Below, one piece after another: positions 1,810 to 32,478 of a DNA stretch of 32,478 nt. The notes under the pieces were generated by a model, which saw nothing but the letters and a program-made list of their open reading frames with translations, was not told where the DNA came from and ran no database searches. The first letter of the stretch is position 1, and each line of letters starts with the position of its first letter. A program made the translations under genes and the position numbers. The stretch is from Clostridia bacterium (lineage in GTDB: Bacteria; Bacillota; Clostridia; Oscillospirales; Acutalibacteraceae): contig JAGBAK010000138.1 of NCBI GenBank assembly GCA_017938985.1, positions 1-32,478 of the forward strand, given 5' to 3'.

Positions 1810-2496
1810 TTATTCCTTTCCGGATTTCCTGAAATGAAGCTCTTTCATACCGTCAACTTCATCGCAGATTGCTTTAAGGTTGCAGGTGGAGCAGTCAAAA
1901 TTGACGCTGTTCATTATATGATTGAGCGTTTCTGCAATTTCGCTGTTTTTTACGGCAAGATTTTCAATGCCGCCGAAATCTGCATTCGGGTGCGTAACAA
2001 AAATCACTTTGACACCCTTAACAGCAGGGATTTCTTTATATTTATCAATCATCAGCGAACCGACTTTGTGAAAGTCGATTCCGCTTTTGATTGCCGATTT
2101 TGCAACACGCACAGCTTCTTTGTGTGAGCGTGATGTGCTTCGCATCATATAACCGTCAGGGAAGGTGTGATATTTTACGTACTCAATCTTTTTAATAAGA
2201 TTATAAGCCTGCTGCTCATCGCCGACGTCATCAATCTGAATAATTGAAATTCTTGCAAAACGGGTGTCTTTGACGATATCTGCCGGATCGTTTCCGATAA
2301 CAACAGTTTCGTCATTAACGCAGTTGCTTGTCACAAGGTTAAAACCCGTACCTTCAAGCTCAAAAGCGGTGTCACGGCGCATAATTACCTGGTTTTTGCC
2401 TACATCATCCCACGCAACCGACTTGCTTTGCGTACGGCAAGGCAGGGGAGCAAGAAGTGCGTTTGCTTTGTCTATCAATGAATCAAAAAATTTCAT
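1810..2496 (-). CDS. Stand-alone acetyl-CoA synthase (AcsB/CdhC) middle-domain-like protein
   Basis: A 228-residue soluble protein. The stretch around residues 38-170 (RRDTAFELEG, VVIGNDPADI, DFHKVGSLMIDKYKEIPAVK, GVKVIFVTHP) resembles the central domain of the beta subunit of CO dehydrogenase/acetyl-CoA synthase. In AcsB that region reads NRTPAFELV, IEVIGPDIDQI, FKNYGEILVAKMKEEFPAI and DRVQVTIFTD. The full synthase is about 730 residues; the A-cluster domain with its FAPNHVC motif is missing here. The C-terminus has a CX2CX5C group (C202, C205, C211) followed by DEVDGMKELHF, which could hold a metal. Its ATG overlaps the stop of the 51-residue gene (TGATG). Being downstream of a CooC-like ATPase and dehydratase proteins suggests a role in assembling or docking a metallocentre. 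Function is not known to me; the homology is from memory of AcsB. Confidence 0.6.
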   Translation of the reverse strand: MKFFDSLIDKANALLAPLPCRTQSKSVAWDDVGKNQVIMRRDTAFELEGTGFNLVTSNCVNDETVVIGNDPADIVKDTRFARISIIQIDDVGDEQQAYNLIKKIEYVKYHTFPDGYMMRSTSRSHKEAVRVAKSAIKSGIDFHKVGSLMIDKYKEIPAVKGVKVIFVTHPNADFGGIENLAVKNSEIAETLNHIMNSVNFDCSTCNLKAICDEVDGMKELHFRKSGKE

Positions 2497-2651
2497 CAGA
2501 GCTTCTTATCCCTTTTCATTTTGTCATAGTGCTTGCCGAGAAAGTCATAAACTTTGCGGATAAGCTTCATATCGAGGTTGAAGAAATAAATAACAAAGGT
2601 GATAACAAAAAGAGCAAGGATAATTCCGAGAATTATAAAAACAACGTTCAT
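2496..2651 (-). CDS. 51-residue single-pass membrane protein
   Basis: A small gene between the activase and the acetyl-CoA-synthase-like gene. It encodes MNVVFIILGIILALFVITFV, continues with a short aromatic segment, and ends in a basic tail (KHYDKMKRDKKL). The first 24 or so residues form one transmembrane helix; the charged C-terminus would face the cytoplasm. The ATG at 2649-2651 starts 1 base after the activase stop, and its TGA overlaps the next ATG. Such tight coupling on both sides argues that it is a real gene rather than chance. A longer in-frame reading upstream exists but would lie inside the activase. It may anchor the downstream enzyme complex to the membrane; that is inference. 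Confidence 0.75.
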   Translation of the reverse strand: MNVVFIILGIILALFVITFVIYFFNLDMKLIRKVYDFLGKHYDKMKRDKKL

Positions 2652-2652
2652 A

Positions 2653-3447
2653 TTATTTATCCAGACCTTTCTGGCGTGCATATTCAGCTGCACCGAGGGC
2701 GCCCATAAGCTGGGGATCGGTTGAAAGCTCAACAACCTTAATTTTAAGCACCTTTTCGATTGCTTTCTTAAGACCGTCATTCTTTGCGCATCCGCCTGTA
2801 AGGGTTATGCTGTCCGTTGCACCTGCTTTTTTAGCCATAACAAAGCATCTCTTTGCAACTGCAAGCTGAATGCCTGCGGCAATTTCGTCCATCGGCTTGC
2901 CTTCGCCGACAAGAGAAATAACTTCGCTTTCTGCAAAAACGGTGCACTGTGCGGTGATGGGAATTGTGTTTTTTGCTTCAAGAGAGAGCTTTGAAAACTC
3001 GGGCAGAGTCATTTCAAAAGCGTTTGCCATAGCCTCATAGAATCTGCCTGTGCCCGCAGCGCACTTGTCGTTCATGGCAAAGTTTTTAACAGTGCCGTCG
3101 GTGTCAATTGATATGCCCTTAACGTCCTGACCGCCGATGTCAATTATTGCCTTGACTTCGGGGTTTGTAACGTGTACGCCCATTGCGTGGCAGCTGATTT
3201 CAGAAATGTTTTCATCTGCAAAAGGAACTTTGTTTCTGCCGTAGCCTGTGCCGATGAGGTATGTAAGCTCCTGTGCCGAATTAAGACCGTCAACCTGTGC
3301 AACGGCATCGCTCAGAGCGATTTCTGCACTTGCAACGGGATTGATTTTGCTTCTGTTTGTAACGTTGGCAACCATTTTGCCGTTTTCATCAAGAATAACG
3401 CATTTTGTATAGGTTGAACCGACGTCACAACCTCCGAAATATTTCAT
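2653..3447 (-). CDS. 2-hydroxyacyl-CoA dehydratase activase (BadF/BadG/HgdC family ATPase)
   Basis: A 264-residue ASKHA-fold ATPase. In this family a homodimer holds one [4Fe-4S] cluster and uses ATP to push a low-potential electron into a dehydratase or a related reductase. Visible motifs are GGCDVGSTYTK (residues 5-15, phosphate-binding), DIGGQDVK (103-110), NDKCAAGTGRF with C129, and AQCTVFAESE with C168. The two cysteines are 39 residues apart, as for the cluster ligands of HgdC. Length is normal for the family. It follows the 510-residue subunit by 30 bases with a GGAG site. The natural partner is the pair of dehydratase-like subunits just upstream. It could equally serve a double-cubane-type reductase, because those use the same activator family. 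Confidence 0.92.
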   Translation of the reverse strand: MKYFGGCDVGSTYTKCVILDENGKMVANVTNRSKINPVASAEIALSDAVAQVDGLNSAQELTYLIGTGYGRNKVPFADENISEISCHAMGVHVTNPEVKAIIDIGGQDVKGISIDTDGTVKNFAMNDKCAAGTGRFYEAMANAFEMTLPEFSKLSLEAKNTIPITAQCTVFAESEVISLVGEGKPMDEIAAGIQLAVAKRCFVMAKKAGATDSITLTGGCAKNDGLKKAIEKVLKIKVVELSTDPQLMGALGAAEYARQKGLDK

Positions 3448-3477
3448 AATAATTATCTCCTTAAATGATACATTTTG

Positions 3478-5010
3478 TTACCAGGCCAAGTCGTCTTCAA
3501 AATCAACAAGCGAGGGGTCAAGAGGCTCTTCCTGAAGAACTGTTTGCATATATTTGTTGACCTGCTCACGCATATCTCGTCTTGAAATTGTTCTGGGGTC
3601 CATAAGGTCCTGTTTAACCCAGATGAAGTTAACGTTTCTTTCTCTTGCCTGGTCGTCAAAAATACCTGCAAGACCGTCCATACCTTTGCACGAAATCTGG
3701 TCATACATAATAACCGTGTCGGCGTTGTATTCTTCAACAATTCTCCAAAGCTCGTCAACAACGTTTCTGTAGCCGCCCTTGGTATGTTTACGCATAATTG
3801 AGCGTTGATATGTTTTTGCAACGTCTTTAAGAGCCTGTTCTTTGTCTTCGGTGTCATATTTGATATAGGAAATCATTGTTTCCATATCCATAACAACGTT
3901 CATACCCCAGCAGTTTTCAAGCCAGTTAGCAAAGCTTGTGTAGTAATTTGCAGGGCAGCTCCATACAACTGCACGGTGACGCATTTCTTTTGAAACAGGT
4001 TCCTTCTTTTCGTAGGCTTTAAGCATAAGCTTGTTGACTTTTTTATCAACCTTAAGGAAACGCTTGTCAACGCCGCCCGAAAGGTTGAAATAATAAATTC
4101 TGTAAAGCCAGAAAGCTGCACCTGTCATCTGGGGATACTCTGTTTTGTTGATATCCCATTTTTCCATTTCATATTCAAGCTGCTTGTTTGAATTTTTAAG
4201 TGCCTTGAAGAAAACGTCCCAGTCAAACTTTTCGCCCGTATGCTCTTCAATGAATTTGATGAGTTCTTTAACCTCCTCAACTGCATATTCCTGAACGTCT
4301 TCGTCATTGTAGCGAAGCGGAATGTTGAACAGGTGAACGGGCAGATTGAGGCGTCTGTCAAGGAAGGTTGAGTTCATAACAGAGCCGTCGCAGGGCATAT
4401 TTGTTGCAATCATGCAGCAACCCATTTTGGGGTAATCGTCGTCAATCGCAACGCCTGCTTCCGCACTGGGAAGGGGACAAACGTCAGCAGGCACGCCGAA
4501 GCTTTCGGTAACCTCAAGGTAAGGCGGAGTTATCTGCTGGTCAACCATAGAGGTAAGGAAAATCGGAATTGTCTGTAAGGGGACAACCTTAAGATTCGGG
4601 AAACCCGAAAAAATTTCGTTGGGAATAATTTCATCGGTAAGAACGATTTTTTTTGAAAGCTTGTTTTTGGGGTTGATCTTTTCGTCAGCAACAAAGGACG
4701 TGTTGATAATTCCCGTTGCGTGCTTGACAATCATATTGAAATGCAGGTGAACAATGCGCAGATGCGTGCCGCGCAGACCTGCAGTGTGTCTGTCAATAAA
4801 TGACGGCGTTGAAAGATACGAAGCCATCCAGCGGTATTTCCACAGACCTTTTACGGTTGATACGGGTGCCTTGAGCACCATAACAATCATATCTTTCCAC
4901 GTTACAAGCCAGCGGTAATAGTCGTACATTGTATCCTTGAAGCCGCGCCACTCTCTGTGTCTGAGAAGAGCTTTGCGGTCTTTTGAATAAAGCTTGCCGA
5001 GATCAGCCAT
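3478..5010 (-). CDS. 2-hydroxyacyl-CoA dehydratase-like subunit, long form (510 aa)
   Basis: This is a HgdA/HgdB-family protein expected to bind an iron-sulfur cluster and receive electrons from the activase. I chose the ATG at 5008-5010 (MADLGKLYSK) because AAAGGCAGGCG lies 7-10 bases upstream. It overlaps the preceding gene by 8 bases; a start at 5121 would overlap it by over 100. The first 170 or so residues are an extension rich in aromatic and basic residues, longer than in ordinary dehydratase subunits of about 380-430. The core holds C178 (ADVCPLPSAE), C207 (NMPCDGS) and C441 (YDQISCKGMDG), plus CC at 198-199. C178 to C441 is 263 residues, the same distance as between C75 and C338 in the sister subunit. 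That supports these as cluster ligands. The substrate is unknown. Confidence 0.85.
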   Translation of the reverse strand: MADLGKLYSKDRKALLRHREWRGFKDTMYDYYRWLVTWKDMIVMVLKAPVSTVKGLWKYRWMASYLSTPSFIDRHTAGLRGTHLRIVHLHFNMIVKHATGIINTSFVADEKINPKNKLSKKIVLTDEIIPNEIFSGFPNLKVVPLQTIPIFLTSMVDQQITPPYLEVTESFGVPADVCPLPSAEAGVAIDDDYPKMGCCMIATNMPCDGSVMNSTFLDRRLNLPVHLFNIPLRYNDEDVQEYAVEEVKELIKFIEEHTGEKFDWDVFFKALKNSNKQLEYEMEKWDINKTEYPQMTGAAFWLYRIYYFNLSGGVDKRFLKVDKKVNKLMLKAYEKKEPVSKEMRHRAVVWSCPANYYTSFANWLENCWGMNVVMDMETMISYIKYDTEDKEQALKDVAKTYQRSIMRKHTKGGYRNVVDELWRIVEEYNADTVIMYDQISCKGMDGLAGIFDDQARERNVNFIWVKQDLMDPRTISRRDMREQVNKYMQTVLQEEPLDPSLVDFEDDLAW

Positions 5011-6208
5011 TGTTCTTCGCCTGCCTTTCTTTCTGAATTTTTTTGATTTCGAGGCTTTCAACAAAAGCCTGAACACGGGTGCGAAGCTGACCGGATGCCG
5101 AAGCTGTATACTGTCTGTCAACTGCAGCAGTGGGTACGCCGTAATCGTTACTCATAACGTACGAAGCAAGCGCTCTTTCGTAGCCCCAGTATTCGCAGAA
5201 CTTAAGCTGCTCATACATAACGCCGTCTGCGTGATACTCGTCAACAAGGCGCTTAACGTAATCTCTGCGTTCCTGAACCTTTTCGTGGCTCATGTATCTG
5301 GGACACTGACTTGTTTTAAGATAGTGCAAACAAATCTGAGTAAGAACGTCCTTGTCGGGATTGATGATAATTTCTTCTCTGCCCGGCATTGAGCCGAAGC
5401 AATATCTGTCGGCAACAACAAGTGCGCCGCTGTCTTCGATAAGGGCAGTAAAATCGGGGTCATCCATTTCTGAACCGACAACAACGATTTTTGCTCTGAA
5501 GTTTTTCTTTGCATCGGGTTCTCTTGTTTTAAGTTCTTCTGCTGTTTCACGCAGCATTGGCAGAATAAGAGCTTTGGGGCAGCAATATGTAATCAAGCTT
5601 AAAATGTGGTATTCATAGCCTGTGATGCGGGGATTATCCTCTTTGCGGTAGTTACCTATTTCCGTCATAATACGGCAAACCTCGTTGTGTTCTTCGACGG
5701 CCTTGAGAAGCGCTGCGTCAGAAGTGTCAACGCCGTAAACGTTTGTAAGCATATCAAGGATTTTGAGCCTTGTTTGTTTTACGTAGTGCTTAACCGTGTG
5801 GTCAGCAATTTTAAAAGGCATATCAAGAAAAGTCAAAAAGAATTTATCGTTTTCAACAAGGTTGAGCAGTTCAAAATGCTCGGCTGCTCTGTTCATTTCG
5901 GAGCAGGTTTCGCTGGCGAGCAGGGCGTTGAGAAAATTGTATCCGCCCTCAATTGCACGTTCAAGAACAGCCTTTGAATAGCCGCAAAGAAAGTTGCTCA
6001 TATAATATGTTGCAATATCCATCGAGCCTGTTCTCGGCGCACGGAGTCTGACCGAAAAACAGTTGCCGCAGTTAAGAAGAACCTCGGGTATGTGGTAGCA
6101 GGTGTAGCCCAAAGCTATGCCGCCGTCAGCTTTTGCCTTCTGCACAAGAGCGTTGTTTGCTTCCTGAAGCAGATTTTCAAATTCATAAAGATGTTTTAAA
6201 TCTCTCAC
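5003..6208 (-). CDS. 2-hydroxyacyl-CoA dehydratase-like subunit, short form (401 aa)
   Basis: The second member of the HgdA/HgdB (BcrB/BcrC) family in this operon. The C-terminus is typical: KFCEYWGYERALAS at 336-349, then VDRQYTASASGQLRTRVQAF, close to the family ending REYT..GQLRTR. Candidate cluster cysteines are C75 (NFLCGYSKAVLE), C102 (SETCSEMNRAAE) and C338. Extra cysteines at 37, 47 and 50 (GYTCYHIPEVLLNCGNC) are near the N-terminus. With the 510-residue protein it probably forms a heterodimer. Its start overlaps the CooC-like stop by 4 bases (ATGA). No CoA-transferase or acyl-CoA dehydrogenase is nearby, so dehydration of a 2-hydroxyacyl-CoA from amino-acid fermentation is not supported by context; a different reduction is possible. 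Confidence 0.85.
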   Translation of the reverse strand: MRDLKHLYEFENLLQEANNALVQKAKADGGIALGYTCYHIPEVLLNCGNCFSVRLRAPRTGSMDIATYYMSNFLCGYSKAVLERAIEGGYNFLNALLASETCSEMNRAAEHFELLNLVENDKFFLTFLDMPFKIADHTVKHYVKQTRLKILDMLTNVYGVDTSDAALLKAVEEHNEVCRIMTEIGNYRKEDNPRITGYEYHILSLITYCCPKALILPMLRETAEELKTREPDAKKNFRAKIVVVGSEMDDPDFTALIEDSGALVVADRYCFGSMPGREEIIINPDKDVLTQICLHYLKTSQCPRYMSHEKVQERRDYVKRLVDEYHADGVMYEQLKFCEYWGYERALASYVMSNDYGVPTAAVDRQYTASASGQLRTRVQAFVESLEIKKIQKERQAKNNG

Positions 6209-6972
6209 TTTAAAATCTCCATTTCAACAAGAGCTTTTTTTGCACCCTCAACAATGTTTGAATCGTCAGGCAGAGTGGTTATGTTTTTGCCTTCAATATC
6301 ATAGATTGCAAGGTTTGAGTCTGTGGGAATATAAGACAAAACGGGAATGCCGTTTGTGTTGATGTGTTCAATAACGCTCTCATCGGGGATTCTGTTGACG
6401 ATAGCGCCGATTTTTTTATACATAACAAGCTCGTCGGCAACACTCTTGATTGTTGAAATAACCTGTGTGCCTTTTTTGCTTGCATCGGTGATAAGCAGCA
6501 AGTGAGTAACCTTTTCCATAACACGGCGGTTGATTTGCTCAATGCCTGCTTCACCGTCGATTACAACGAAGTCAAATTCCTTTGAAAGAATGCTGATTAC
6601 CTCTTTGAGATAGGTGTTGATTTTGCAGTAACAGCCTGCGCTTTCGGGTCTGCCAACGGCAATAAAGGCAAAGCCGTCTGTTTCAACAAGAGCATCGAAA
6701 ATCTTGTATCTCGCATCGCCCAGAAGCTCAATTGCCGCTTTTGTCTGACCGTCTTCAACGGTTTCGACAATCTCTTTGCGGATGTCGTCAATTGTCATAT
6801 TAACTTCAATTCCGAGTGCGGTTGAAAGACCGACTGCAGGGTCGGCATCAATTGCAAGAATCTTTTTGTCGGGATAAGCCTGAACCAAGAGTTTTACTAT
6901 AGCGGCGGAAACCGACGTTTTGCCTACGCCGCCTTTGCCTGAAAGAGCAATAATTGTTGAATTGTTTTCCAA
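6205..6972 (-). CDS. CooC-like P-loop ATPase (CODH nickel-insertion type)
   Basis: A 255-residue MinD/ParA-fold ATPase. The deviant Walker A motif is LSGKGGVGKTS (residues 10-20), followed by AIDADPAVGLSTALGI (40-55) and VVIDGEAGIEQ. Residues 113-118 read GCYCKI; a CXC pair at this position (C114, C116) marks CooC, the dimeric ATPase that helps load nickel into CO dehydrogenase. No CO dehydrogenase gene is seen here; instead dehydratase-like subunits follow with a 4-base overlap. It would therefore act as metallochaperone or maturation factor for them; this is inference. The start is TTG at 6970-6972 with AGGAG 9-10 bases upstream, and it is the first gene after a consensus promoter. Confidence 0.88.
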   Translation of the reverse strand: MENNSTIIALSGKGGVGKTSVSAAIVKLLVQAYPDKKILAIDADPAVGLSTALGIEVNMTIDDIRKEIVETVEDGQTKAAIELLGDARYKIFDALVETDGFAFIAVGRPESAGCYCKINTYLKEVISILSKEFDFVVIDGEAGIEQINRRVMEKVTHLLLITDASKKGTQVISTIKSVADELVMYKKIGAIVNRIPDESVIEHINTNGIPVLSYIPTDSNLAIYDIEGKNITTLPDDSNIVEGAKKALVEMEILK

Positions 6973-7002: not shown

Positions 7003-7031
7003 ATTATAACAAAATACTGATATATTTTCAA
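7003..7031 (-). promoter_or_regulatory. Sigma-A promoter of the CooC/dehydratase-like operon
   Basis: On the minus strand TTGAAA (7026-7031) and TATAAT (7003-7008) are separated by exactly 17 bases. The -10 box ends 30 bases before the TTG start at 6972. It is the only promoter I see for the eight-gene run down to position 1. Confidence 0.8.
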
Positions 7032-7050: not shown

Positions 7051-7083
7051 AATAAAAAATCGGAACAGCCTGAAACTGTTCCG
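7051..7083 (-). terminator. Rho-independent terminator after the second MFS gene
   Basis: An 8-bp perfect stem, CGGAACAG (7061-7068) against CTGTTCCG (7076-7083), with a 7-base loop. On the minus strand it is followed by ATTTTTTATT. It ends the GDPD-MFS transcript and insulates the downstream operon promoter. Confidence 0.85.
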
Positions 7084-7122
7084 ATAAATCAGTGCTTGTA
7101 CCGAAATAAGCGGTAAAACAAG

Positions 7123-18757: not shown

Positions 18758-20785
18758 GTGTCGGATAAAATACATAATATAGGTATTCTTGCTCACGTTG
18801 ACTCGGGCAAAACAACACTTACCGAGCAGCTTTTGTATTTAACGGGTGCAATCCGCACCGCAGGCAGTGTTGACAGCGGCACGGCGGCAACCGACAGCCT
18901 TTCAATTGAAAAGCAAAGAGGAATTTCGGTGCGCACCGCTACCGCCTCAGCAAGCTATAAGGGCGTTACCGTTAATATAATCGACACTCCCGGTCACGTT
19001 GATTTTGCGGGCGAGGTCGAGCGTGCTCTTTCTGCGCTTGACTATGCGGTGGTTATTGTTTCCGCTGTTGAGGGCGTGCGTGCTCATACCGAAAATATTT
19101 TGAAATCGCTTGATGCTGCAAAGCTGCCGAGAGCTGTTTTTATCAATAAAATTGACAGAGCAGGCTCTGATATGATGGCGGTGGTCAATGAATTGAAACA
19201 GTTGTCGGCGCAGACGTATTTTGTTGCATCCGAAGTTAAAAACGAGGGCGAAGATAATCCTTGCGTCAGCAGATTAACGGGTGAAAACTTTGCTCTTGCT
19301 GCAACCGAAGCGCTTGCCGATATCTGCAACGAAGCTGCGGAGGCGTTCCTCTGCGATGAAGCATTAACGCAAGAGCGTGCGGCTGAGCTGATAAGAAGCG
19401 AAATTTCTGCTTGCCGACTTACTCCCGTTCTTTGCGGCAGCGCCAAATATTCAATCGGGGTTGAGAATCTGGCAGATTTTCTTGTTGAATATATGCCGTC
19501 TTCTGAGCGCAGAGCAACCGATGAATTATGCGGTGTTATTTTTAAAATTGAGCACGATAAAACCTTGGGCAAGGTTTCCCATATAAGACTTTTCGGCGGT
19601 GAAATTGCAAACCGTGACGAGGTTGAGATTTTGTCACCTGACAGTTTTTCGGATATGATTCAGGATACAGACGATAATGCGGCGGTTGAAACCGAAAAGA
19701 AGCCGCCCGTCCGAGAAAAAATTTCGCAAATCAAGAGCTTTTCGGGCGCAAAATTAAGTGATTCGGGTATCGTAAGAGGCGGCGATATTGCTGCCGTGTG
19801 CGGTCTGCCGAGCGCAAAAACGGGTCATTTTATCGGCTCGCTCTCGGTAAGCGAAAACGCAAGGCTCGTTAATCCTTTCCTGCGTGTGAAGGTTACGCCG
19901 TCCGACGGCGATGCACTTAAAATTCCCGACCTTGCGGCGGCGCTGGTCGAGCTATCCGACGAAGAGCCGTATATTGATGCAAAATGGGAAAACGGTCAGA
20001 AAGAAATAACAATCAGCACTACGGGCAAAATTCAGCTTGAGGTTCTTGATAATCTGCTCAAGGAAAGATATAATCTTTCGGCTGCGTTTTCTCCGCCGAC
20101 GGTTATATACAAAGAAACACCTGCTTCAAAAGGCTTGGCAAGAGCAAGCTATACAATGCCGAAACCCTGTTGGGCGGTTGTTGAGTTTATGTTTGAACCC
20201 ATGCCGAGAGGCTATGGCGTCAGTTATCACGGAAGACTGCCCTCAAATCAATGCTTTTACAGATATCAGTCACACATCAGAACTTCGTTCAATTCCTGTC
20301 TTGAGCAGGGTCTTTACGGCTGGGAGGTTACCGATTTCAGATGTACGCTCATCGGCGGCGAACACCACACAATTCATACACATCCGCTCGATTTCTTTGT
20401 GTGTACGCCTATGGCATTTATGAACGGTATGTCACAGCTCGGTTCAACAATTCTTGAGCCGCTTTTGAAAATCAGAGTAACCGCCCCTGCAGAGATTTCG
20501 GGCAAAATTCTCTCCGAAATTGTCAAAATGGGCGGCGAATACGAAAATCCCGTTGCCCGTTCGCAAACCGTTACGCTTGAAGCGATTGTTCCCGTTGCAA
20601 CGTCAATGGATTTCCCCACAAGGCTTGCGGTTTTGTCGTCGGGTAAAGCGGTGCTGAATCAGTCGTTTTACGGCTACCGTGAATGCCGTGACGGTCTTGA
20701 ACATATTAATCCCAGACGCGGCGTGAATCCGCTTGACCGTTCAAAATGGATTCTCTATGCAAGGGGAGCATATCAGAAAGATTGA
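18758..20785 (+). CDS. TetM/EF-G-like ribosome-associated GTPase
   Basis: A 675-residue translational GTPase with the layout of ribosomal protection proteins (TetM/TetO, about 640 residues) and EF-G. Motifs: AHVDSGKTT (12-20), DTPGHVDF (76-83) and NKID (130-133). An insertion-like acidic stretch lies near residues 290-320 (DTDDNAAVETEKKPPVREK). The EF-G domain IV region includes GYGVSYHGRLPSNQCFYRYQ, and the C-terminus ends NPRRGVNPLDRSKWILYARG. The start is GTG with AAGGAG 9 bases upstream. It has its own promoter and terminator and native composition. It may be a chromosomal paralogue used to rescue or modulate ribosomes; tetracycline resistance is possible but not shown. Confidence 0.85.
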   Translation: MSDKIHNIGILAHVDSGKTTLTEQLLYLTGAIRTAGSVDSGTAATDSLSIEKQRGISVRTATASASYKGVTVNIIDTPGHVDFAGEVERALSALDYAVVIVSAVEGVRAHTENILKSLDAAKLPRAVFINKIDRAGSDMMAVVNELKQLSAQTYFVASEVKNEGEDNPCVSRLTGENFALAATEALADICNEAAEAFLCDEALTQERAAELIRSEISACRLTPVLCGSAKYSIGVENLADFLVEYMPSSERRATDELCGVIFKIEHDKTLGKVSHIRLFGGEIANRDEVEILSPDSFSDMIQDTDDNAAVETEKKPPVREKISQIKSFSGAKLSDSGIVRGGDIAAVCGLPSAKTGHFIGSLSVSENARLVNPFLRVKVTPSDGDALKIPDLAAALVELSDEEPYIDAKWENGQKEITISTTGKIQLEVLDNLLKERYNLSAAFSPPTVIYKETPASKGLARASYTMPKPCWAVVEFMFEPMPRGYGVSYHGRLPSNQCFYRYQSHIRTSFNSCLEQGLYGWEVTDFRCTLIGGEHHTIHTHPLDFFVCTPMAFMNGMSQLGSTILEPLLKIRVTAPAEISGKILSEIVKMGGEYENPVARSQTVTLEAIVPVATSMDFPTRLAVLSSGKAVLNQSFYGYRECRDGLEHINPRRGVNPLDRSKWILYARGAYQKD

Positions 20786-25171: not shown

Positions 25172-26320
25172 TCAGATAAGTGAATTGTAAAGAGCAGTGA
25201 TTTCTTCAACGCTTGTATCTCTGGGGTTACCGGGACGGCAAGCGTCGTCAAATGCGCTCAGTGCAAGGAAGGGGATATCCTCAGCTTTAACGATTTCCTT
25301 GAGGTCGGCAGGAATGCCAACGTCAATTGAAAGCTGCTTAACGGCATCAATAGCTGCCTTGCGTGCATCTTCAATGCTCATTGCGTCTGTGCCTTCAACG
25401 CCCATAGCCTTTGCAATGTCTCTGTACTTATCACCTGTTGCAGGTGCATTGTATTCCATAACTGTGGGAAGAATGATAGCGTTTGCAACGCCGTGAGGTG
25501 TGTCATAAAGTGCACCGAGGGGGTGAGCCATTGAGTGAACAATGCCGAGACCAACGTTTGAGAAGCCCATACCTGCGACATACTGACCGAGAGCCATACC
25601 TTCTCTGCCTTCGTCAGTGTTGGCAACAGCGCCTCTGAGGCTCTTTGCAATGATTTCGATAGCCTTGATGTGGAACATATCGCTCATTTCCCAAGCGCCC
25701 TTGGTGATGTAGCCTTCGATTGCGTGTGTAAGAGCGTCCATACCTGTAGCAGCGGTAAGACCTGCAGGCATTGTTGACATCATATCGGGGTCAACAACGG
25801 CAACAACAGGGATATCGTGAACGTCAACGCAAACCATCTTTCTGTTATTCTGTGCGTCTGTGATAACGTAGTTGATTGTAACTTCTGCAGCAGTGCCTGC
25901 TGTTGTGGGAACAGCGATGATGGGAACGCACTTGTTCTTTGTGGGAGCAACACCCTCAAGTGAACGAACGTCAGCAAATTCGGGGTTAGCGATGATGATA
26001 CCTACTGCCTTTGCAGTGTCCATTGATGAACCGCCGCCGATAGCGATGATGCAGTCTGCGCCGCTTGCCTTGAAGCTTTCAACGCCTGCCTGAACGTTTT
26101 CGATTGTGGGGTTAGCCTGGATTGTGCTGAAAACGTCATAAGGGATTTCGGCACCCTTGAGAATGTTAAGAACCTTGTCAGCAACGCCGAATTTAATGAG
26201 GTCGGGGTCGCAGCAAACAAGAGCCTTTGTGAAGTTTCTTGCCTTGAATTCGTCAGCAATAGCGGCGATAGCGCCCTTGCCGTGGTATGATGTTTCGTTG
26301 AGTACAAATCTGTTAGCCAT
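25172..26320 (-). CDS. fucO: Lactaldehyde reductase (propanediol oxidoreductase)
   Basis: A 382-residue iron-dependent alcohol dehydrogenase, the same length as E. coli FucO and very similar in blocks such as NPEFADVRSLEGV, PTTAGTAAEVTINYVITD, ALTHAIEGYITKGAW and ALGQYVAGMGFSNVGLG. It reduces L-lactaldehyde, the aldolase product of rhamnose or fucose breakdown, to 1,2-propanediol with NADH. Iron ligands are D195, H199, H262 and H276, and GGGSSMD (95-101) binds the cofactor. It is the last gene of rhaA-rhaD-fucO with a 65-base gap that holds a palindromic repeat. GGAGG stands ahead of the ATG. It gives this anaerobe a redox sink. Confidence 0.93.
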   Translation of the reverse strand: MANRFVLNETSYHGKGAIAAIADEFKARNFTKALVCCDPDLIKFGVADKVLNILKGAEIPYDVFSTIQANPTIENVQAGVESFKASGADCIIAIGGGSSMDTAKAVGIIIANPEFADVRSLEGVAPTKNKCVPIIAVPTTAGTAAEVTINYVITDAQNNRKMVCVDVHDIPVVAVVDPDMMSTMPAGLTAATGMDALTHAIEGYITKGAWEMSDMFHIKAIEIIAKSLRGAVANTDEGREGMALGQYVAGMGFSNVGLGIVHSMAHPLGALYDTPHGVANAIILPTVMEYNAPATGDKYRDIAKAMGVEGTDAMSIEDARKAAIDAVKQLSIDVGIPADLKEIVKAEDIPFLALSAFDDACRPGNPRDTSVEEITALYNSLI

Positions 26321-26344
26321 TGTTAAATCCTCCGTTATAGATTA

Positions 26345-26375
26345 GTTATGGGTAGGGGCGGATATTATCCGCCCG
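26345..26375. repeat. Palindromic intergenic repeat, copy 1
   Basis: GTAGG then GGGCGGATA (26356-26364), one base, and TATCCGCCC (26366-26374), a 9-bp perfect palindrome, in the gap between rhaD and fucO. The core sequence TAGGGGCGGATA recurs at 30844-30873. There is no T-run, so it is not an ordinary terminator. It may be a short dispersed element (REP/MITE-like). Confidence 0.7.
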
Positions 26376-26385
26376 TATGTTTTGA

Positions 26386-27207
26386 TTAAAGATTAAGGAA
26401 ATCTCTTCTGTAAACGTCAAGAAGATTGAAAGCCTTTGCAATTTCAACAAGGTCGGGGTCGGTGATTGTGTTTACTCTGGGCAGGTGAGCAGTCATCATA
26501 TAAAGCTGAGCAGCCTTTTCAACTGTTTCAATAAGACCGAAAGCTTCATCAAGGTCCTTGCCGCAGCCGTAGATACCGTGCTGACCCCAGACAACAAGAC
26601 GGAATTCCTTCATTTTTTCAGCGGTTGCAATGCCGATTTCGTTGGTGCCGCAAACCATCCAGGGAAGAATGCCGATACCGTCGGGGAAAACAACCATACA
26701 CTCGGTGCACATTTCCCAGAGTGAATGTGTGAATTTCTTTTCGCTCAGCTCATGAACGTAAGTCATTGCAAGTGTGTTTGTGGGGTGGCTGTGCATAATA
26801 ACTCTGTTTTCGGGATTTTTTGAGAGTCTTGAAATGTGGCTCATAAGGTGAGCGGGAAGCTCTGATGTGGGTCTGCCGCCGTCGCTGTAGCCCCAGAGAA
26901 GCTCTGCGGTTGTGCCGTTTTCTGCAATCTTGATGATGCCGAGGTTGTTTTCGGGGTCATCTTCAATGTTTTTGAAATATTTGCCTGTGCCTGTGACGAT
27001 GAAGATTTTGCCAACGAGAACGCTTGCGTCAAAGCCCATTTCGATTGTTCTGATGGGAGCATTGATGTCAAGATATTCTGCAACCTCGTCGTTTTCAAGC
27101 ATCATACTGATGTTGCCGCCGTTTCTTTCGTCCCAGCCCATGCGGTACATATTTGCCGTTGTTTTCATCATACCCTTAACGAAGGGTGCATCCATAATGT
27201 TTTTCAT
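26386..27207 (-). CDS. rhaD: Rhamnulose-1-phosphate aldolase
   Basis: A 273-residue zinc class II aldolase that splits L-rhamnulose 1-phosphate into dihydroxyacetone phosphate and L-lactaldehyde; E. coli RhaD has 274 residues. Zinc ligands are H139 and H141 in IMHSHPTN and H210 in WGQHGIYG; the catalytic Glu is E116 in TSELPAH. Other conserved blocks are GWDERNGGNIS, FIVTGTGKYFKN and VVFPDGIGILPWMV. Its ATG overlaps the rhaA stop by 4 bases. Its lactaldehyde product is the substrate of FucO encoded next. Confidence 0.95.
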   Translation of the reverse strand: MKNIMDAPFVKGMMKTTANMYRMGWDERNGGNISMMLENDEVAEYLDINAPIRTIEMGFDASVLVGKIFIVTGTGKYFKNIEDDPENNLGIIKIAENGTTAELLWGYSDGGRPTSELPAHLMSHISRLSKNPENRVIMHSHPTNTLAMTYVHELSEKKFTHSLWEMCTECMVVFPDGIGILPWMVCGTNEIGIATAEKMKEFRLVVWGQHGIYGCGKDLDEAFGLIETVEKAAQLYMMTAHLPRVNTITDPDLVEIAKAFNLLDVYRRDFLNL

Positions 27208-28442
27208 TTTCTGTTCACCAAAACCTTTTCTTCATATTCTTTGATTATATTCAGATAATCGGGTTCAACCTTTTGTCTGTTAAGATATTCTGCCCATATA
27301 TCGCCGAAGGGCAGGGTTTTTGCTTCTTCGCTGAGCACCATAAGCTCTGTGAAATTCGAAGCATCCTGAAGCTCTTTCATTTTTGCGTCAGGCTGAAGCA
27401 TTGCAAAAAGCAGAGCCTTCTGAACGTTGCGAACGCCCGTTACCCAGGCGCTGATGCGGTTGATTGAAGCATCAAAATAGTCAGTTGCAATAAACACTCT
27501 GTCAATTGCATCATTGCGGACGATTTCTTTTGCGATTTCCTTTGTTTCGTCGTCAAAAAGAACAACGTGGTCGCTGTCCCAACGGACGCCTCTTGTGACG
27601 TGAAGAGCGATTTTTTCGTTGAATGCAAGCATAGCCGAAATCTTGTCGGAAACAAGCTCCGTAGGATGATAGTGACCGTTATCCATAAGCGGAACAATGC
27701 CTGCTTTTGTTGAATAGCTGAGGCAGAATTCAGCCGAGCCGACTGTGTAGCTTTCAAGACCGATGCCGAAAACCTTTGACTCAAGGGTGATGAATACTTT
27801 TGATTTGTCATAGGGAGTTGCGAGAATTTCGTCAAGTGATTTCTTGAAGCGGAGTCTGGGGGAAAGGCGGTCGGCAGGAATATCCTTGTAGCCGTCGGGA
27901 ATCCATATGTTCATAACACAGGGATAGCCCGTTTCTTTTGCAAAGTAATCGGAAAGCTCAACGCAGCGCTTGCCGTGTTCAACCCAGAATTTGCGTACTT
28001 CTTCATCGGGTGAAGAAAGTGTCAGACCGTCTTTAACCATAGCGTGTGAGAAGAACGTGGGATTAAAGTCGATGCCGATGTTTCTTGCCTTTGCAAACTC
28101 AACCCATTTTGCAAAATGTTCAGGTTTAAGAGCATCTCTGTCAGCTCTGTTGCCGTCAAAGATTGCGTAACTTGCGTGCAGATTAAGCTTAACTTTGCCG
28201 GGAATAAGGCTGAAGGCTTTGTCGATATCCGCCATAAGCTCATCGGGCGTTCTTGCTTTGCCGGGATAGTTGCCCGTTGTCTGAATGCCGCCCGAAAGAG
28301 CATCGTCGCTGTCAAAGCCGCCTACGTCGTCGCCCTGCCAGCAGTGAACCGAAACGGTTACCTGAGCAAGGTCGGCGAGAGCTTTTTCAGCGTCAATGCC
28401 GTGTTTTGCATATATCTCTTTTGCACTTTCAAATCTGTTCAT
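27204..28442 (-). CDS. rhaA: L-rhamnose isomerase
   Basis: A 412-residue isomerase converting L-rhamnose to L-rhamnulose; E. coli RhaA has 419. Diagnostic blocks are VSVHCWQGDDVGGFD, HASYAIFDGNRADRD, GIDFNPTFFSHAMVKDGLTL, NIWIPDGYKDIPADR, LESKVFGIGLESYTVGS, LMDNGHYHPTE and RWDSDHV, which hold the metal-binding Glu, Asp and His residues. It is the promoter-proximal gene of rhaA-rhaD-fucO, with GGAGG 6-7 bases before the ATG. There is no rhamnulokinase gene (rhaB) in the operon, so phosphorylation must be encoded elsewhere. No AraC-type regulator is adjacent. Confidence 0.96.
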   Translation of the reverse strand: MNRFESAKEIYAKHGIDAEKALADLAQVTVSVHCWQGDDVGGFDSDDALSGGIQTTGNYPGKARTPDELMADIDKAFSLIPGKVKLNLHASYAIFDGNRADRDALKPEHFAKWVEFAKARNIGIDFNPTFFSHAMVKDGLTLSSPDEEVRKFWVEHGKRCVELSDYFAKETGYPCVMNIWIPDGYKDIPADRLSPRLRFKKSLDEILATPYDKSKVFITLESKVFGIGLESYTVGSAEFCLSYSTKAGIVPLMDNGHYHPTELVSDKISAMLAFNEKIALHVTRGVRWDSDHVVLFDDETKEIAKEIVRNDAIDRVFIATDYFDASINRISAWVTGVRNVQKALLFAMLQPDAKMKELQDASNFTELMVLSEEAKTLPFGDIWAEYLNRQKVEPDYLNIIKEYEEKVLVNRK

Positions 28443-31775: not shown

Positions 31776-32478
31776 TTATTCCTTTTCGCCGTTTCTGATT
31801 GCAACTCGTCTGACTTTGCCGCTGAATGTTTTGGGCAGAGCGTCAACAAATTCAATGATACGGGGATATTTATAGGGTGCGGTGTTGACTTTGACGTAGG
31901 TCTGAAGCTCTTTTACAAGCGCATCGGAGCCTTCAAAGCCGTCTCGCAGAACAACAGTTGCTTTAACAACAAAGCCTCTTACGGGGTCGGGAACGCCCGT
32001 AACGGCAACTTCGAGAACTGCAGGGTGCTCAAGCATAACGCTTTCAATCTCAAAGGGTCCGATTCTGTAACCGGATGACTTGATAACGTCGTCGTTTCTG
32101 CCAAAGTAAACGAAACGTCCCTGTTCATCTCTGTATGCAAGGTCGCCTGTGTGGAAGAAGCCGTTTCTGTAAGCGTGCGCAGTTTCCTCTTCATCAAAGT
32201 TATAGCTGGCAACAACGCCGCAGGGATGCTCTTCTGGTGAAGGTGACTTGATGCATATTTCGCCGATTGTACCTCTCTGGCAGTGGTTGCCGTCTTCGTC
32301 AAGAATATGTACTCTCAGACCGGGGGCAGGAAAGCCGATTGCACCGGGTACGGGCTTTGTCCACGGATAAAGCGTGCAAATGCTGACGGGAGTTTCGCTC
32401 ATTCCGAAGCCTTCGTGAATTTCAAGACCTGTTGCCTCTTTCCACTTGTTGAAGATATCGGCGTTGAGCGCTTCGCCT
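31776..32478 (-). CDS. Acyl-CoA synthetase (AMP-forming), partial C-terminal part
   Basis: The last 233 or so residues of an ANL-superfamily ligase that activates an acyl acid with ATP and CoA; the N-terminal half lies outside the window to the right. Motifs: IHEGFGMSETPVSI (A5-type, the E is typical), GFFHTGDLAYRDEQGRFVYF, GRNDDVIKSSGYRIGPFEIE (hinge region), and LPKTFSGKVRR with the catalytic Lys of the C-terminal domain. The wording is closest to acetyl/medium-chain acyl-CoA synthetases. The ATG at 32402 is internal: the frame stays open to the edge with fitting sequence (EALNADIFNKWKEATGLEIH). The substrate is not deducible. Confidence 0.93.
   Translation of the reverse strand, partial: GEALNADIFNKWKEATGLEIHEGFGMSETPVSICTLYPWTKPVPGAIGFPAPGLRVHILDEDGNHCQRGTIGEICIKSPSPEEHPCGVVASYNFDEEETAHAYRNGFFHTGDLAYRDEQGRFVYFGRNDDVIKSSGYRIGPFEIESVMLEHPAVLEVAVTGVPDPVRGFVVKATVVLRDGFEGSDALVKELQTYVKVNTAPYKYPRIIEFVDALPKTFSGKVRRVAIRNGEKE

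Follow-up and report, generated by a model that had tools for sequence, protein, structure and literature searches.

The locus examined here raises the question of why a CooC-like ATPase and a piece of acetyl-CoA synthase (ACS) should be encoded together with two dehydratase-like subunits. It lies on a contig of 32,478 nucleotides from a Clostridia bacterium of the family Acutalibacteraceae (JAGBAK010000138.1, assembly GCA_017938985.1), called the window below; the host genome is 2.19 Mb in size and 81% complete. Searches for open reading frames and protein families show that six tightly packed minus-strand genes fill positions 1810–6972. In the 5′ to 3′ direction of that strand they encode the CooC-like ATPase, a small and a large subunit of the HGD-D family (S401 and S510), an activase, a membrane peptide and the ACS-like protein (ACSL). 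In our view, the most consistent interpretation is that the module makes an ATP-driven two-subunit iron–sulfur (Fe–S) reductase with the HGD-D/class I benzoyl-CoA reductase fold, to which CooC and ACSL, acting as a maturation pair, would deliver metal; we put the probability of this interpretation at about one half. Among ATP-dependent HGD-D reductases the module is a novel form, distinguished by its helper pair of CooC and an ACS fragment, and it appears to represent an unstudied type of low-potential metalloenzyme. Its features are as follows.

7059–7085, minus strand: terminator-like hairpin of the upstream gene (12-pair stem and T tail), bounding the unit
7003–7031, minus strand: promoter-like site with extended −10 (TTGAAA-17-TATAAT, 11/12 bases), probable start of the unit
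6205–6972, minus strand: CooC-like P-loop ATPase, 255 amino acids; TTG start with AGGAG upstream, deviant Walker A motif GKGGVGKT, metal-site motif GCYC
5003–6208, minus strand: S401, small HGD-D subunit (E = 9.4e-90), 401 amino acids; predicted carrier of an [8Fe-9S] double-cubane cluster
3478–5010, minus strand: S510, large HGD-D subunit (E = 3.5e-48, residues 158–488), 510 amino acids, with an N-terminal extension of about 150 residues; predicted catalytic subunit with an open-site [4Fe-4S] cluster
2653–3447, minus strand: acyl-CoA dehydratase activase-type ATPase (TIGR00241), 264 amino acids, electron activator
2496–2651, minus strand: single-span membrane peptide, 51 amino acids; NLDxK motif, maximum 19-residue hydropathy 3.38
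1810–2496, minus strand: ACSL, ACS middle-domain protein (profile match to ACS) with a C-terminal CxxCx5C motif

The distances along the set are −4, −8, 30, 1 and −1 bases, in agreement with the small overlaps and gaps listed in a first-pass annotation made from the sequence alone. The best start for the membrane peptide, which matched no family in the family searches, is the ATG at 2651, giving the 51 residues listed.

Cluster ligands and family limits of the predicted reductase pair

From sequence, we hold with considerable confidence that the enzyme has the architecture of an ATP-driven two-subunit HGD-D reductase. In the benzoyl-CoA reductase subunit BzdN the [8Fe-9S] cluster is bound by Cys36/73/100/263/293/327, and in BzdO the [4Fe-4S]-OH2 cluster is bound by Cys95/128/380, as given in PMC11971306. 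When profile alignments were read with positions counted along the rows, S401 residues C37/C75/C102/C270/C302/C338 fell on all six BzdN ligands and S510 residues C178/C207/C441 on all three BzdO ligands, the match of C441 with Cys380 resting on a weak BzdO segment together with an MbdO alignment. The six S401 cysteines are kept in 34/34 members (C37 in 33/34, with one residue unread). S510 has five near-invariant cysteines, of which the three aligned on cluster ligands are kept in 30/30 members and the other two, C199 and C367, in 28/30 and 29/30. The activase scores 213.6 bits against TIGR00241, above the cutoff of 125.4, and is 86 and 88% identical to homologues in two other genera.

The pair nevertheless falls outside the curated families. 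S401 scores 95.7 against bzdN (cutoff 453.8) and 53 against bcrC (421.2), while S510 scores 23.1 against bcrB (486.6) and 18.4 against bzdO (448.6). The cutoffs of HadB and HadC are missed by far (31.9 versus 750 and 78.8 versus 700), as is that of the DCCP model NF040772 (135.5 and 62.2 versus 350 bits). At S401 positions C37 and C270 the aligned HadC has proline and alanine. A tree was built from 36 HGD-D sequences, BzdO and HadB not among them. In it the S401 sequences group with those from the CooC-linked pairs of two other genomes, G375 (locus L131) and G865 (locus L163), with support of 98/95, and BzdN, HadC and DCCP fall outside this clade. The large subunits group likewise (93/84), that of L163 being a long branch. 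With the curated cutoffs missed and the tree placement apart, we reject identity with Bzd/Bcr or DCCP. The two-subunit, ATP-primed reductase outside the known dehydratase families that the first-pass annotation had proposed is thus borne out by cutoffs, aligned ligands and a clade of its own, and the match to a characterised system that it had considered was not found at the Had, Bzd, Bcr and DCCP cutoffs.

At two further loci, L203 (5044–10431) and L204 (5603–10685), another two HGD-D proteins are encoded alongside an activase and additional genes, in host genomes which also have carbon monoxide dehydrogenase (CODH) and ACS. One of these HGD-D proteins reaches 333.8, where the double-cubane cutoff is 350, and may belong to a two-subunit variant of DCCP.

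Recurrence and linkage of the gene set

Matches to the ACSL protein or profile were found in 3/197 genomes of the order sample and in 4/150 genomes of the family sample, the window's own genome being counted in each. Two genomes of the same genus in the family sample have no match, and the module is therefore patchy. In the class sample nine of 391 genomes matched; two of these were set aside as genuine ACS, the first confirmed by A-cluster motifs and the second a frame truncated where its locus stops. The S510 profile at E ≤ 1e-20 finds 7/391 genomes, and these are exactly the other seven ACSL genomes, own genome included, although the seven are phylogenetically non-independent. Regions from ten other module genomes contain the six genes in a single order in nine cases, the tenth (L019) being cut by a contig end. 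Since the set recurs outside the genome of the window, as a search for co-occurrence suggested by the first-pass annotation has now confirmed, it is more than a chance assembly.

Among named genomes, the S510 profile picked out at least 513 candidate relatives, of which the best 80 were kept, corresponding to 79 loci; this list is consequently skewed towards close relatives. Together with the ten regions above they make a set of 89 loci, with at least three contigs represented twice (L006/L062, L019/L057 and L025/L059). For 26 of the 79 loci the record title points to the gut of a ruminant or deer, and the relatives include Clostridium algidicarnis DSM 15099, a cultured type strain (L102), and a metagenome-assembled genome of Vallitalea sp. 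The plain standard order with all six genes is present in 52/89 loci. Six others also hold the set, either with extra genes (L018, L101 and L104) or with a peptide that is present though the tally filter missed it (L029, L036 and L044). By gene, S510 (the query) is present in 89 loci, S401 in 86, the activase in 77, CooC in 73 and ACSL in 70, many of the absences falling at contig ends; the membrane peptide is kept in place among the relatives. Rearrangements occur in which the parts stay together: CooC lies between the peptide and ACSL, directly before the latter, in L066, L069, L071, L075 and L089, and between the two also in L070, which is cut, and the order in L092 is CooC–activase–peptide–ACSL–S401–S510. 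Overall, the set recurs in dozens of genomes, mostly Clostridia, amid different flanking genes.

A second cluster type, type 2, is found in the class of G865, where short ACSL forms (frames of 240–277 amino acids) are present in 6/97 genomes. As far as the contigs reach, its order is small subunit–large subunit–activase–activase–ACSL–CooC. Ahead of the cluster lie two acyl-CoA dehydrogenase genes and one gene without assignment, in G865 (by Pfam) and in G1120 and G1129 (by similarity). In G375 a related pair is accompanied by CooC, two activases, a CoA-transferase, a CoA ligase and a thiolase. The type 2 clusters and the G375 pair suggest that CooC and ACSL have long been associated with this reductase clade, and that some relatives probably act on acyl-CoA compounds. 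The earlier statement that such parts are not usually found side by side is unsupported as worded, the set being conserved and present as a second type in another class. The absence of CoA enzymes noted there stands for the genes beside the module in the window and fails for the wider clade, where acyl-CoA dehydrogenases or CoA-transferase and ligase genes lie alongside. We note that a transposase gene (L131, 9729–11074) separates the activases from the CooC-linked subunit pair in G375.

The proposed helper pair and its hosts

The CooC-like ATPase is of the CbiA/ArsA type by family search. With a ten-sequence profile its best solved match is CooC of Carboxydothermus hydrogenoformans (PDB entry 3kje; E = 6e-19), the CYC of its GCYC motif falling on the CYC of that protein. 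C114 and C116 are kept in 21/21 CooC-like members, and the CxC cysteines also in 9/9 sequences of an alignment taking in type 2 and L131. The C. hydrogenoformans protein is reported in PMC6006190 to bind one nickel per dimer, with zinc competing for the Cys112/Cys114 site.

Its customary client is missing from most hosts examined. CODH is found over cutoff in 3/11 module genomes and gives no match in 8/11, of which six are 99–100% complete; the window's own genome, at 81% completeness, likewise gives no CODH match, in line with the earlier remark that none is present. The C-terminal domain of ACS is found in 2/11 module genomes and in none of the other nine. CooC would therefore have another client in those genomes, and an accessory role for the pair in a CODH/ACS system is rejected on these counts.

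ACSL matches CdhC at E = 1.1e-4 with 22.6 bits, just below the cutoff of 24. With its profile the match to ACS covers residues ∼333–486 (E = 1.5e-9), which is the middle domain, and an hhalign comparison with 17 AcsB sequences (probability 97.6, E = 4.6e-12) reaches the first two Fe–S cysteines of the A-cluster. On these two [4Fe-4S] cysteines, which we take to be Moorella C506 and C509, align C202 and C205 of ACSL; the third cysteine is C211. All three are kept in 58/58 ACSL proteins of the window's type (type 1) and in 6/6 of type 2. The nickel-binding CGC motif of ACS is absent from ACSL. At E = 0.01, 55/58 members match CdhC and 0/58 match the ACS C-domain family, the ACSL of the window stopping 26 residues past C202. 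The arginine R130, aligned with the ACS RVSK motif, is kept in 58/58. PMC12289521 proposes that CoA acts on the ACS middle domain and, in a model, has the protein CoFeSP dock at it. Among 398 phylum genomes the ACSL profile gives 96 matches, mostly full-length ACS frames, and the short form is seen in two, G000 and G865 (frames of 403–416 amino acids in G882, G999 and G1084 being left out). Both labels given to these proteins at first pass were thus correct, the ATPase matching the CooC family together with its metal-site CxC, and ACSL being truly ACS-derived by profile and by hhalign.

Co-variation was evaluated from the distance matrices of 51 dereplicated loci with 2000 label permutations, which leave some shared ancestry. 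The partial correlation is 0.80 for S401 with S510, and 0.56 for CooC with ACSL, a value reached by 0/2000 permutations with shared ancestry not fully removed. It is 0.07 for ACSL with S401, −0.14 for ACSL with S510 and 0.24 for the activase with ACSL. Several S401–S510 pairs occur in G613 (four), G412 (three), G497 (two) and G071 (three, and a further pair in which the small subunit clusters with HadC), and each of these genomes has one ACSL match, which we read as catalytic pairs sharing one helper set. We think it very likely that CooC and ACSL are a dedicated pair for the HGD-D reductase, and likely that their joint task is metal delivery or cluster assembly.

ACSL is the fastest-evolving gene of the set: over 85 locus pairs in which S510 differs by 1–8%, the mean difference is 5.5% for S510 and 33% for ACSL. 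The loci L026–L034 are 64–68% identical to the window in ACSL and 91–99% identical in CooC, S401, S510 and the activase.

Flanking genes give few indications of substrate. Clustering of the flanks of 28 representatives yields one frequent partner (8/28), a flavoprotein of the Old Yellow Enzyme type that resembles FadH, BaiCD and BilR. A close form (≥65% identity) lies within the operon in 7/89 loci (L090, L091, L094, L096, L100, L101 and L102), or 12/89 when more distant forms are included; the eight flavoproteins scanned all fall short of the cutoffs for bile-acid and bilirubin reductases. Regulators of the TetR, GntR or LysR type are found close to the set or the pair in four cases (L102, L101, L202 and L201). 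In hosts with the flavoprotein or the regulators, this suggests inducible reduction of an unsaturated compound. The neighbours of the window module offer no comparable hint, and as a route to the substrate the flanking genes were a dead end, each of the three nearest neighbours recurring in 1/89 loci (a count limited by short contigs). A seventh gene of the MFS type (406–1806) comes 3 bases after the set; a homologue, 37% identical, is found in 1/89 related loci.

Upstream, the single consensus promoter previously described is present as an 11/12-base site with an extended −10 (7031–7003), but shuffled sequence yields a mean of 1.0 equally good site, so that alone it is not above chance. The hairpin at 7085–7059 (0.0 in shuffles) divides the unit from the upstream gene. 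At gathering thresholds the window and eight loci contain no known RNA element except one ribosomal L10 leader, and hence no nickel or other Rfam riboswitch. The six proteins match nothing in PADLOC at E = 1e-5, on which ground a defence system is rejected; ACSL matches nothing in a plasmid collection at E = 1e-3, with no sign of plasmid cargo.

Elsewhere in the window, an EF-G-like protein (18758–20785) related to tetracycline ribosomal protection proteins scores 492.6 bits, below the cutoff of 775, and is therefore perhaps not a standard resistance gene. A rhamnose degradation operon lies at 25172–28442, with rhamnose isomerase over one of two cutoffs, lactaldehyde reductase over both, and a middle gene that is aldolase-like by eye only. 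The C-terminal part of an acyl-CoA synthetase (31776–32477) is truncated by the contig end, with no link to the module seen.

Proposed mechanism, alternatives and known systems

In the mechanism that we favour, the activase would hydrolyse ATP and drive low-potential electrons into S401, which would store them on its double-cubane [8Fe-9S] cluster and then hand them over to S510. There a [4Fe-4S] cluster held by three cysteines, one iron being left open, would support radical reduction of a small substrate. CooC and ACSL would be non-catalytic and form the dedicated maturation pair, the CxC site of CooC carrying a metal ion, most likely nickel, and ACSL serving as acceptor of that metal or as docking partner for the reductase. 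The membrane peptide may anchor the assembly, and one ACSL could be shared among the several catalytic pairs of a genome. Nickel in particular is a tentative assignment, less likely than not to be right. We are slightly more doubtful of the fuller version, a nickel reductase of the benzoyl-CoA reductase/dehydratase superfamily in gut Clostridia, likewise with a double cubane, which CooC would load with nickel via ACSL and which would act on a CoA or non-CoA substrate.

Several observations weigh against metal delivery by CooC and ACSL. BzdNO and DCCP are not known to use either protein, and the cluster may thus not in itself call for them. No set of nickel ligands was identified, and ACSL is without the nickel site of ACS. 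At the level of the locus, no ACSL lies near the CooC-linked pair of L131, and at more than 800 bases from a contig end the S401–S510 pair stands alone in L083, L084, L086 and L088, CooC and ACSL are missing in L055 and L072, CooC and the activase in L056, and only CooC, S401 and S510 are present in L100. The rapid evolution of ACSL fits a docking partner and, equally, weak constraint. CooC does not occur in the main text of PMC11971306, and PMC6006190 describes a Rhodospirillum rubrum CooC which does not bind nickel tightly and CODH maturation without CooC in some species.

The alternative that survives best is that CooC and ACSL assemble or repair Fe–S clusters from iron and sulfide with no heterometal, CooC being a cluster-carrier P-loop NTPase and ACSL a scaffold by way of its CxxCx5C motif. 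The six double-cubane ligands kept in S401, the alignment of C202 and C205 on A-cluster cysteines and the CxC kept in the ATPase would all suit it; as counter-evidence, the closest solved relative by profile is a CODH metallochaperone, and other double-cubane enzymes are not known to have such a helper. We consider it improbable, though deserving of serious attention.

It is less probable again that ACSL is a structural third subunit which binds CoA or a partner protein and presents a CoA-thioester substrate, with CooC as a second, ATP-driven factor. This would account for the roles proposed for the ACS middle domain in CoA contact and CoFeSP docking (PMC12289521), for the invariant R130 and for the acyl-CoA dehydrogenases accompanying type 2 clusters, but a subunit is hard to reconcile with a protein that varies six-fold faster than S510, co-varies with CooC and not with S401 or S510, and occurs as one match in genomes with several catalytic pairs.

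Two HGD-D subunits and a TIGR00241 activase would also fit an ordinary 2-hydroxyacyl-CoA dehydratase whose neighbouring genes are bystanders; this reading is very improbable given the Had scores, the two S401 cysteines replaced in HadC, the position of HadC outside the clade, the lack of a CoA-transferase beside the module in the window and the conservation of the genes inside the set, which are hence no bystanders, and we reject it on cutoffs and tree. That the helpers are remnants of, or spares for, a CODH/ACS system, as their homology and the CODH of three host genomes might imply, is scarcely credible when most hosts have neither CODH nor the ACS C-domain, the cysteines are invariant and the linkage to the reductase is stable.

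On the maturation-pair interpretation, CooC would serve something besides CODH in genomes that yielded no CODH match, and the ACS middle domain would have a role independent of acetyl-CoA synthase. The analysis also delimits a clade of reductases predicted to carry a double cubane, present in many metagenome-assembled genomes of gut Clostridia and in C. algidicarnis DSM 15099. If nickel is involved, this would be a new class of nickel enzyme; if not, a dedicated assembly route for the unusual [8Fe-9S] cluster.

No description of the six-gene set was found in the one open-access library searched, most subscription papers lying outside it. Compared with known systems, the module most resembles the Bzd-type class I benzoyl-CoA reductase BzdNOPQ in its HGD-D heterodimer, its six double-cubane and three [4Fe-4S] ligands and its ATP-driven activase. 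It differs in scores far under the Bzd and Bcr cutoffs, in having one activase gene in the window where Bzd and Bcr have two (as do the type 2 clusters), in the separation of the S401 clade from BzdN (BzdO being outside the tree), and in the addition of the ∼150-residue large-subunit extension, CooC, ACSL and the membrane peptide. With the dehydratases HadBC and HgdAB it shares the HGD-D family and a single activase gene next to the subunit pair, but S401 has extra double-cubane cysteines and belongs to another clade, with no CoA-transferase beside the module. DCCP and its reductase have the double-cubane ligands of S401 and an ATP-driven activase in common with it; DCCP is a homodimer with a double cubane per chain, whereas the module has two different subunits and is under the NF040772 cutoff. 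The nickel metallochaperone CooC of CODH is like the ATPase in its P-loop GKGGVGKT, its CxC site and its standing as best solved-structure match, yet 8/11 hosts give no CODH match and the regular partners here are an HGD-D reductase and ACSL. Relative to AcsB/CdhC, finally, ACSL is without the N-terminal domain, the C-terminal A-cluster domain and the CGC nickel site, and has the middle domain (∼333–486) together with the first A-cluster CxxC.

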